Shown: positions 47,773 through 63,927 of the stretch, in pieces
Layout of the letters: the number at the start of each line of letters is the position of its first letter
Position numbering within the stretch: position 1 is the stretch's first letter
Source of the DNA: an uncultured Chlorobiaceae bacterium
Lineage (GTDB): Bacteria > Bacteroidota > Chlorobiia > Chlorobiales > Chlorobiaceae
Assembly (NCBI GenBank): GCA_903824045.1
Contig: CAIJVD010000006.1
Coordinates: 62,001-126,000, forward strand
Length of the DNA: 64,000 nucleotides
Direction of reading: 5' to 3'
Translations under genes and position numbers: made by a program
The notes under the pieces: model-generated
The model's database searches: none
Told to the model about the DNA's origin: nothing
Seen by the model: only the letters and a program-made list of their open reading frames with translations

Positions 47773-47923
47773 GTTAGAGACAACTCGTCCTGAAAAGTGA
47801 CTTTCTGTAGCACATTCTGAGTCACTCATCTCTGGTTTGAGTCTCTCTCCAGGAATAGAGGTATTCAGTTAACTGGCTTTAAAAAAACACGATGCGGTTT
47901 TATTGTTAACATTTACCCTGTTC

Positions 47924-47939
47924 TGGCACGGTAGTTGCA
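47924..47939 (+). promoter_or_regulatory. Sigma-54 (-24/-12) promoter, copy 1
   Basis: TGGCACGGTAGTTGCA matches the TGGCACG-N4-TTGCW consensus. Confidence 0.85.
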
Positions 47940-47949
47940 AAATTACTTA

Positions 47950-48037
47950 TGAAAAACCTCGCGCCAGTGAGGTGGAGCCGGTGTAATGGGGGACACCTGC
48001 TCACTAAAAAAAGCGGCTGAAAAGCCGCTTTTTTTTT
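47950..48037 (+). ncRNA. Putative sigma-54-dependent small RNA, copy 1 (Chlorobi-1-like architecture)
   Basis: Two hairpins (ACCTC..GAGGT; GAGC-C-GGTGT..ACACC-T-GCTC) plus terminator AAGCGGCTGAAAAGCCGCTTTTTTTTT; no ORF; near-identical second copy downstream. Confidence 0.8.
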
Positions 48038-48241
48038 GTTCAATCTGCAAACAGCATGGTCAGTTCTCTCCGGGAGGAAGTTGTCCGTTGAGGCTACGGG
48101 GCGAGAACAATCTGAGACGATCTGTTCCATCTTGCCTCTCTCTCGAAGCCGAAGGGGAGGGGAGGCTGGTCAAGGTGAAAATCAGCTAACTTGTTTTAAA
48201 ATTGCTTCTTGCTCTGTTTCCTGATGATTTTTCTCTTGTTC

Positions 48242-48257
48242 TGGCACGGTAGTTGCA
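48242..48257 (+). promoter_or_regulatory. Sigma-54 (-24/-12) promoter, copy 2
   Basis: TGGCACGGTAGTTGCA, identical to copy 1. Confidence 0.85.
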
Positions 48258-48267
48258 AAATTACTTA

Positions 48268-48352
48268 TGAAAAACCTCATGCCAGTGAGGTTGAGCCGGT
48301 GTAATGGGGGACACCTGCTCACGAAAAAAGCGGCTGCAAGGCCGCTTTTTTT
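48268..48352 (+). ncRNA. Putative sigma-54-dependent small RNA, copy 2
   Basis: Same hairpins as copy 1; substitutions fall in loops and linkers; terminator AAGCGGCTGCAAGGCCGCTTTTTTT. Confidence 0.8.
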
Positions 48353-48380
48353 CGTTATGGATTGAACTCTTTCTTAAGCT

Positions 48381-49319
<939 letters not shown>

Positions 49320-62135: not shown

Positions 62136-62289
62136 AGTGATTTCTCCTTTTTCTAATGGCGTTGAAATTGGATATTTTCAGGAAGTCGCCTACAAGTTCA
62201 TTCCTGTTAAATAACAGCTTGTCATAAATTTAAAGAATAATAATCAATAAATAAAGCAAAATATCACTCTGCAATCCTTTCATCGCCAG

Positions 62290-63927
62290 ATGCCTTCACT
62301 ATCCTCCGCAGTCGATCGGCTGACCGGTTCCCGTTATGCGCCGTCGCTTCTCTCCGGCCTTCTTCTCGGCATTTCGTTTCCCTCTTACCCCTTTATTCGT
62401 CTTGAGCTTCTTGCATGGATAGCGCTTGTGCCCATGCTTCTCGCCTTCCGAAGCGAGATGCGCCCCGCAGAGTTTTTCAGGCGCACCTGGCTCTCGATGC
62501 TGCTCTTTTGCAGTATTGCCTTGTGGTGGGTCTCGCTTGCAACCTTTCCTGGCGGGGTTATGACCATTCTCTGGCAGTCGCTCTCGATGATTGTACCGCT
62601 TCTCTTTTTTTATGCGATCCGCCGACAGGCCGGTTACCGCTTTGCCCTTTTTTCTCTTCCCTTCATCTGGGTTGCATGGGAGTGGGCCTACATGCAGCAG
62701 GATCTGTCGCTCGGATGGCTGACCCTCGGCAACTCGCAGGCTAACCTTTCTGCGATGATCCAGTACGCCGATGTTGCAGGTGTCTGGGGGGTAAGCTTTT
62801 GGCTTGTCAGCTTCAATGTGCTCGCCGTTCTCGCCATCACCGGAAGCCGACAGGACAGGGTTAGGGTGGCTGTGGTAATGGCGCTTATGATTGCCGCGCC
62901 TCTTTTTTACGGGGTGGTGATCTTTCAGGGAGGGAGTCCACTGCCTCCGGGCGGTCAGCAGCAGCTTCGCGTTACGCTTGTGCAGCCCGATATCGACCCG
63001 CATGAAAAATGGGGCAGAAATAATAATAGCTCCATCATGGAGCGCTACCGTCGCCTTACCACCCGGGCGGTTCGCCAGGAGAGGCCTGAACTCATTCTCT
63101 GGCCCGAAACTGCAATCCCGTTCTATATTCTCGATGTACCCTATGCCGATGAGCTGGCTTCGCTGCGCCAGTCGCTGCGACTGTGGAACACGCCACTTCT
63201 GACCGGCTTTTCGGACATCGTCCGCTATCCCGCTGCCGCGCCAACTTCCGCTGGAAATCCCGGAAAGTATGACTCCATGCGCATGCAGCCTTTCGAGACT
63301 TACAACGCCTCTATGCTGCTCATGCCGGGCAGCGGAGCACCCCAGATCTACCGCAAAATGCGTCTTGTTCCCTTCGCCGAAAGGGTGCCCTATGTCGACT
63401 ATCTACCCTGGCTTGGTACCTTCAATCTCTCGCTTGCGGGTATCAGCAGCTGGGGGAAGGGGAGCGAGAGCTCGGTCATGGAACTTCGCTCTTCGCGCAA
63501 CGGCCGTGTGGTTACGGCCAATATCATCTGTTACGAGTCGATTTTTCCCGGTCTCGTCACGGAGTTTGTCCGCAAAGGGGCGCGATTCCTGACGCTTGTG
63601 ACTAATGACGGGTGGTATGCAATGTCCTACGGCCCCTACCAGCATCTTGCCATCGCCAGGTTCCGCTGCATCGAGAACCGCCGGGCGATGGCACGCTGCG
63701 CCAATACCGGCATCACCGCTTTTATCGACAAATTCGGTCGTATCTCTGCTGAAATCCCCTGGTGGCAGGAGGGCACGCTTACGGCTGAGGTGCCACTGGA
63801 AAGTCACCTGACCTTCTATACCCGAAACCCCGACCTGCTTCCCAAAGCCGCCTCGGTAATCTCGATGCTGCTCTTTGCGGGAGCCTTTCTGAAAAGAGGG
63901 AAAAAAGCTACAGCCCGTAGGCCTTGA
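62290..63927 (+). CDS. lnt: Apolipoprotein N-acyltransferase
   Basis: LILWPETAIPF, NIICYESIFPGLVTEFVRKGARFLTLVTNDGWY; N-terminal multi-TM region. Confidence 0.94.
   Translation: MPSLSSAVDRLTGSRYAPSLLSGLLLGISFPSYPFIRLELLAWIALVPMLLAFRSEMRPAEFFRRTWLSMLLFCSIALWWVSLATFPGGVMTILWQSLSMIVPLLFFYAIRRQAGYRFALFSLPFIWVAWEWAYMQQDLSLGWLTLGNSQANLSAMIQYADVAGVWGVSFWLVSFNVLAVLAITGSRQDRVRVAVVMALMIAAPLFYGVVIFQGGSPLPPGGQQQLRVTLVQPDIDPHEKWGRNNNSSIMERYRRLTTRAVRQERPELILWPETAIPFYILDVPYADELASLRQSLRLWNTPLLTGFSDIVRYPAAAPTSAGNPGKYDSMRMQPFETYNASMLLMPGSGAPQIYRKMRLVPFAERVPYVDYLPWLGTFNLSLAGISSWGKGSESSVMELRSSRNGRVVTANIICYESIFPGLVTEFVRKGARFLTLVTNDGWYAMSYGPYQHLAIARFRCIENRRAMARCANTGITAFIDKFGRISAEIPWWQEGTLTAEVPLESHLTFYTRNPDLLPKAASVISMLLFAGAFLKRGKKATARRP

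Follow-up and report, generated by a model that had tools for sequence, protein, structure and literature searches.

In Vibrio, phosphorylated LuxO and sigma-54 drive the multicopy Qrr small RNAs (sRNAs), which also repress luxO (PMC8043402, PMC4211561), and in Bacteroides thetaiotaomicron the 14 paralogous FopS sRNAs target mRNAs and associate with the RNA-binding protein RbpB (PMC11697453). The Chlorobi-1 family has been known since the work of Weinberg et al. (2010), though without a function, and the table of that paper classes the RNA as neither cis-regulatory nor a switch (Y/n/n; PMC2864571). The word 'sigma' is absent from the main text of that paper, and no sigma-54 promoter, enhancer, activator or target is described there. 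Among the openly accessible papers searched, no other was found to name Chlorobi-1, and within the literature covered the link of this family to a sigma-54 promoter, an enhancer, a partner activator and a candidate target for feedback, as discussed below, appears to be new.

The DNA considered here, referred to throughout as the window, is a 64-kb stretch from the genome of an uncultured Chlorobiaceae bacterium (G000) and contains two such RNA genes. Computation establishes their family, structure, promoter and synteny, their co-occurrence with an activator gene, and a conserved C-run in the leader of that gene. On balance these features favour a circuit in which a response-regulator activator, here called the C12-type activator, would drive sigma-54-dependent Chlorobi-1 sRNAs that in turn would feed back on the activator mRNA.

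Architecture of the tandem locus

The two units are direct repeats, 318 bp apart from start to start and 88% identical over 113 nt, lying between two genes that serve as syntenic markers: one of the agmatine deiminase family (aguA; PF04371; 46653-47699, plus strand) and a convergent one of the lactate/malate dehydrogenase family, read as mdh (48381-49313, minus strand). Ahead of each copy, on the plus strand as are all the RNA features that follow, stands the sigma-54 -24/-12 promoter TGGCACGGTAGTTGCA, at 47924-47939 for copy 1 and 48242-48257 for copy 2, and counting from the -12 C places the predicted +1 at 47950 and 48268. The predicted transcripts, whose ends are likewise predicted, span about 88 nt (47950-48037) and about 85 nt (48268-48352). 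Each unit has its own hairpin and T-run at the 3' side, an intrinsic terminator supported by folding at 48006-48037 in copy 1 and, at 48324-48352 in copy 2, a hairpin with A-run/T-run symmetry which suggests that it may also end the convergent mdh transcript. From a promoter and a terminator belonging to each copy we infer that the copies are independent transcription units, as had been claimed in an earlier note on this DNA; that note's description of tandem units, each with a sigma-54 promoter and a terminator, is confirmed, with the same +1 sites, and the RNA sequence it quoted is exact. No third Chlorobi-1 copy was found in G000 at E<=1, leaving two copies only.

Both units were assigned by cmscan to RF01696, Chlorobi-1, with 79.5 bits for copy 1 (E 4.4e-21; 47951-48018) and 78.9 bits for copy 2 (E 7.5e-21; 48269-48335) against a gathering score of 50. 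Both matches span positions 1-67 of the 67-position model, so that the membership suggested in the earlier note is borne out at full length. The Rfam model, folding and covariation together define stem-loop 1 (47957-47972 in copy 1, 48275-48290 in copy 2) and stem-loop 2 (47975-48002 and 48293-48320), the latter with the conserved loop UAAUGGGGGA at 47984-47993 and 48302-48311, which is the proposed pairing seed. Folding z-scores are -5.7 and -5.4, and none of 200 shuffles folds equally well. Across 41 diverged copies, compensatory changes on both sides occur in 15 of the 16 base pairs and 96.6% of cells are paired, with 0 of 500 shuffles and no slid version coming near the real alignment; both stems, which the note had marked for a covariation check, therefore do covary. 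The invariant columns are restricted to four loop G's and the C that closes stem 2. The two units are almost certainly paralogous non-coding sRNA genes.

Two statements made about the sequence earlier hold in part. Substitutions between the copies had been placed in loops and linkers only, which fails for the GC/AT difference: it lies inside stem 1, where pairing is nonetheless kept (G-U and C-G in copy 1, A-U and U-G in copy 2). The absence of any ORF had also been claimed; mechanical ORFs do overlap the copies (47986-48189 and 48304-48639), but none is conserved, since the loop AUG is not kept in other copies, which carry GUUGGGGGA or CGUGGGGGA instead, and a short ORF starting at this AUG was rejected on that ground.

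A loop sequence that is conserved while the stems vary could also mean that the RNAs bind a protein through the GGGGGA loop, in the manner of a CsrB/RsmZ-like sponge, and not by base pairing, a notion consistent with the GGA in the apical loop and with several copies per genome. CsrA, however, was found in one genome only among the 21 searched, being absent from G000 and from 19 of the 20 relatives, and Hfq was found in none of the 21, the window genome included, which makes protein capture of this kind improbable. A CsrA sponge was rejected because G000 has no CsrA, and an Hfq-dependent sRNA because no Hfq was found in the 21 genomes.

In three genomes (G170, G203 and G071) weak matches to the Chlorobi-1 model, of about 20 bits and alike in sequence, recur at intervals that are multiples of about 61 bp, and would be in keeping with a stem 1 that mimics a type I-E CRISPR repeat and makes the RNA a crRNA decoy or guide. 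Such spacing means that the matches fall on repeat arrays; moreover, Cas6e does not co-occur with the RNA (8/38 vs 13/49 genomes, p 0.62) and is not found in G000, and the segment that would serve as 5' handle covaries with the opposite strand of stem 2. CRISPR-repeat mimicry was rejected on these three grounds and is extremely unlikely. The weak resemblance of type I-E-like CRISPR repeats to the model in these genomes is a caution for annotation by score only. A Bacillus match (L128) to a degenerate 22-nt pattern was set aside, as by our own estimate a similar number of chance matches is expected in 264 Gb.

The window holds a further structured RNA at 62179-62240, an Lnt RNA (RF01711, 67.3 bits) that precedes a gene for apolipoprotein N-acyltransferase (62290-63927), the place expected for that family.

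Sigma-54 promoters and a candidate enhancer

The -24/-12 element, with GG and GC conserved 10 bp apart, precedes 52 of 80 distinct Chlorobi-1 copies, where 0.26 would be expected from shuffles, and the sigma-54 promoters reported in the earlier note recur at syntenic loci. The distance from GG to the RNA is 25-26 nt in 33 of these 52 promoters and 32-37 nt in the other 19, a spacing that puts the predicted +1 on the base where the Rfam model starts or slightly ahead of it. Judged from sequence, sigma-54 dependence of the copies is very probable.

Upstream of these promoters, mostly 95-150 bp before the -24 GG, lies the palindrome TGAGACA-N3-TGTCTCA. It is matched at 12 or more of its 17 positions in 26 of 53 sigma-54 promoters (2.2 in shuffles) and at 14 or more in 8 of 53 (0.04 in shuffles), counts that are flattered by the derivation of the consensus from the same promoters on which it is counted. 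Its recurrence strongly suggests an enhancer for an AAA+ activator. Within the window a good match, TGAGACGATCTGTTCCA (score 16.5, shuffle p 0.002), occurs at 48113-48129, 121 bp before the promoter of copy 2, and a weak and uncertain one, AGAGACAACTCGTCCTG, ahead of copy 1 at 47776-47792 (score 6.9, shuffle p 0.06), with no strand assigned to either. The site at 48113-48129 and its sigma-54 site form the only such composite in the 64 kb, and this one candidate enhancer might serve the promoters of both copies. A search allowing at most two mismatches returned no enhancer site in G000, and the site in the window emerged from the weight matrix only.

A family-wide motif search also placed the enhancer motif and a sigma-54-like site ahead of the gene for a putatively secreted protein of 203 aa (G166 and G207) and ahead of genes for LapA-like adhesins, the one in G234 matching the retention-module model NF033682 and the one in G216 recognized by eye. 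Elsewhere in G000, a sigma-54-like site and the enhancer-like TCTGACAATTTGTCTCC precede dnaK on contig C19 (L107; shuffle p 0.012, uncorrected). Contig C17 (L309, L310) carries several TGGCAYN5TTGY sites along with a sigma-54 activator gene and the gene for a secreted-looking 203-aa protein that resembles the enhancer-linked one of G166.

Distribution and synteny

Chlorobi-1 scores above the cut-off in 38 of 87 Chlorobiaceae genomes, with at most five matches per genome; Chlorobium phaeovibrioides, Pelodictyon luteolum and Chlorobium sp. N1 are among the carriers that have a name. The order aguA-RNA-mdh recurs at about 30 loci in both genera, with one to four tandem copies between the agmatine deiminase gene and mdh. 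By its own terms the earlier note would have been refuted had promoter and stems not been conserved at syntenic loci; both are kept there, which favours its claim. In RNA-less genomes of the window's genus the gap between aguA and mdh is mostly 64-131 bp and retains an A-run/GCGG...CCGC/T-run hairpin, and no RNA, sigma-54 site or enhancer was found in it. With the hairpin alone left in these gaps, the terminator of the last copy is probably the one that the two convergent genes already shared before.

In relatives belonging to families f2 and f3 of the same order, and at some secondary loci, Chlorobi-1 occurs without a sigma-54 site. For the related families this arrangement makes the promoter look like an acquisition of the Chlorobiaceae, and the RNA family would then exemplify how an sRNA comes under a new kind of transcriptional control. 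By eye, the copies without a sigma-54 site in two loci of other families (L068, L073) have a TAnnTTTG-like upstream sequence comparable to the Bacteroidota housekeeping promoter.

Several variants depart from the common arrangement. In the C. phaeovibrioides group a variant without a sigma-54 site lies directly after the stop codon of a gene whose product, about 465 aa long, has no Pfam match (L035:4042, L037:3018, L057:3978), and resembles a version of the RNA carried in a 3' UTR. In genus g2 a second subtype with the loop CGUGGGGGAA occupies another conserved place, adjoining a PAS-domain gene and again without a sigma-54 site (L054, L059, L062, L065, L067). At other loci of the same genus (L017, L021, L023, L025, L026, L085) the complementary arms TTGGTCTGCA ... 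TGCAGGCCAA surround the first tandem copy, outside the RNA and its terminator; an extra outer stem and an element boundary are candidate readings of these arms.

A co-inherited activator and the question of nitrogen control

G000 encodes six clear sigma-54 activators, and the RNA-less genomes G052 and G102 three each, all of which have counterparts in every genome compared. The activator whose presence follows that of the RNA is of the response-regulator type (G000:C12:15838-17307), with a REC domain, an AAA+ domain containing GSFTGA, and a Fis HTH. All 36 genomes with sigma-54-driven RNA have it, as do 3 of the 51 others, the remaining 48 being without it (Fisher 2.5e-21, a test that ignores kinship, beside which only 6 independent contrasts exist). 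Presence was called by a gap in E-values (<=3e-158 vs >=3e-105), and G213 was scored as positive because a portion of the protein matched at 58%. Only two RNA-positive genomes, G098 and G221, are without this activator, and all of their copies are without a sigma-54 site. On the mdh tree there are 7 changes of state for the RNA and 8 for the activator, joint in 6 of 6 independent contrasts (sign test p 0.031). Co-occurrence and co-inheritance make it probable that the C12-type activator drives the Chlorobi-1 copies. Directly upstream of the activator gene, at L241:6959-7675, lies a gene whose product is conserved, about 200-240 aa long and rich in TGQLIDGVTSTI repeats, with no Pfam match above cut-off.

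By NCBIfam the C12-type activator falls below the equivalog cut-offs of NtrC, NifA and LuxO; it scores 383.6 bits against the ntrC model, whose cut-off is 558.6, and its 331.5 bits against the LuxO cut-off of 800 indicate that it is not LuxO. These values bear on the proposal of the earlier note, NtrC-type control such as by nitrogen status, taken here to include control by NifA. Such control would agree with the sigma-54 promoter, with the NtrC-like response-regulator character of the co-occurring activator, with a gene for glutamine synthetase III that several genomes have at a distance of about 5.4 kb from that of the activator, and with the place of the RNAs beside an agmatine deiminase gene. 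It is opposed by the failure of that activator to reach the NtrC cut-off, by the rarity of the NifA-type TGT-N10-ACA element, which lies upstream of just 6 of 78 copies and of none in the window, by a nif sigma-54 site that is without the RNA-type enhancer, by the occurrence of NifA in the RNA-less G052 and G102 also, and by the other sites of the enhancer, which are at surface-protein genes. The NifA of G000, for which NifA is the best NCBIfam model (522 bits, just under the cut-off of 529), adjoins nifI-like genes. NifA control was rejected, as the NifA-type enhancer is absent, and nitrogen control by either regulator is unsupported and quite improbable, the nearby glutamine synthetase III gene leaving it some chance.

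A candidate feedback target and the proposed circuit

Leaders of the activator gene in the main clade contain, in 27 of 27 cases, a CCCC run that ends 14-30 nt before the start codon, vs 14% of 520 control gene starts, and 10 of the 27 contain CCCCAT (1.7% of controls); CCCC stands at that leader position in 1 of 27 other sigma-54 activator genes. The run is complementary to the conserved UGGGGGA loop of the RNA and is retained in activator leaders that have otherwise diverged. In 67% of RNA-bearing genomes, vs 10% of controls, the leader contains 6 nt or more that complement the loop without a mismatch, and the complement is short overall, at 5-9 nt. The run was first noticed in the output of a target screen, while several regions were being viewed, and was then tested on orthologs; the screen itself, with RNAduplex on 197 gene starts from a part of G000, gave no candidate above shuffled background. 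Three RNA-less genomes that have the activator show a loop complement of 5 nt and keep a short CCCC. In the second activator clade CCCCC directly follows a start codon in G178, G028 and G190. No CCCC run was found at the activator gene in G010, G211, G040 and G234, which have the RNA and only the second activator clade, or before it in G110, G150, G194 and G067, RNA-bearing members of the other genus.

The conserved complementary motif gives about an even chance that the RNA loop pairs with the C-run of the activator mRNA as feedback, and the absence of the run from part of the RNA-bearing genomes makes this pairing a good hypothesis, not a demonstration. The action in trans that the earlier note had assumed thereby gains a concrete candidate target. 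With the C-run of the main clade placed 14-30 nt upstream of the start codon, the RNA would probably restrain the translation of the activator that drives it, a negative feedback. Alternatively, the same sigma-54-driven sRNAs may act on other mRNAs, such as those for surface adhesins of the regulon, with the C-run of the activator unrelated to the RNA. The sharing of enhancer and sigma-54-like site by the LapA-type adhesin genes and the 203-aa secreted protein gene is consistent with this, as are a short C-run in three genomes without the RNA and its absence from several with it; yet the run is specific to this activator (1 of 27 others), persists in diverged leaders and complements the loop, and action confined to other mRNAs is accordingly rather unlikely, if far from negligible.

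The circuit favoured here, Hfq-independent and with feedback on the activator mRNA, would run as follows. The C12-type activator would bind the TGAGACA-N3-TGTCTCA palindrome (candidate site TGAGACAATTTGTCTCA) and, with sigma-54 RNA polymerase, open the -24/-12 promoters, and each copy would then yield an RNA of about 85-90 nt whose apical loop may act as the pairing seed. Its best-supported target would be the activator's own mRNA, reached through the leader C-run. The RNA may also act on other mRNAs with a C-run, and extra tandem copies would add dose.

Comparison with known systems

Chlorobi-1 as first described (RF01696; PMC2864571) is the closest relative of the window's RNAs, the likeness lying in sequence, in the two stem-loops plus terminator and in the host group. 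GlmY/GlmZ, going by the title of a reference in PMC4211561, resemble them as paralogous sRNAs with sigma-54 promoter input, but are enterobacterial and differ in structure, activator and target. FopS is likewise a multicopy family of paralogous sRNAs, in a related lineage, and is distinguished by a canonical sigma-ABfr promoter and a single-stranded 5' seed, whereas Chlorobi-1 has a sigma-54 promoter and a proposed hairpin-loop seed (PMC11697453).

The fullest parallel is with Vibrio Qrr. Both systems have several near-identical sRNAs with a separate sigma-54 promoter each; the Qrr copies also have upstream activator sites and answer to one response-regulator activator, and for Chlorobi-1 candidate sites and a probable single activator of this type are read from sequence. 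Qrr pairs with luxO mRNA, while pairing of Chlorobi-1 with the activator mRNA is a proposal. Qrr also needs Hfq, which was not found in the 21 genomes searched, and Chlorobi-1 has features of its own in its two short hairpins and putative G-rich loop seed; the claim is that it may work like Qrr, with neither kinship nor membership implied. A more tentative extension, for which we would claim somewhat less than even confidence, is that a Qrr-like circuit arose independently in genomes where no Hfq was found, with a phosphorylated activator driving tandem Chlorobi-1 RNAs whose GGGGG loop would capture the C-run of the activator and tune a surface and adhesion regulon that shares the enhancer. 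Promoter class, co-inherited activator and candidate feedback target make of Chlorobi-1, so far a structure without a function, a circuit that lends itself to direct testing, and this among bacteria whose searched genomes yielded no Hfq.
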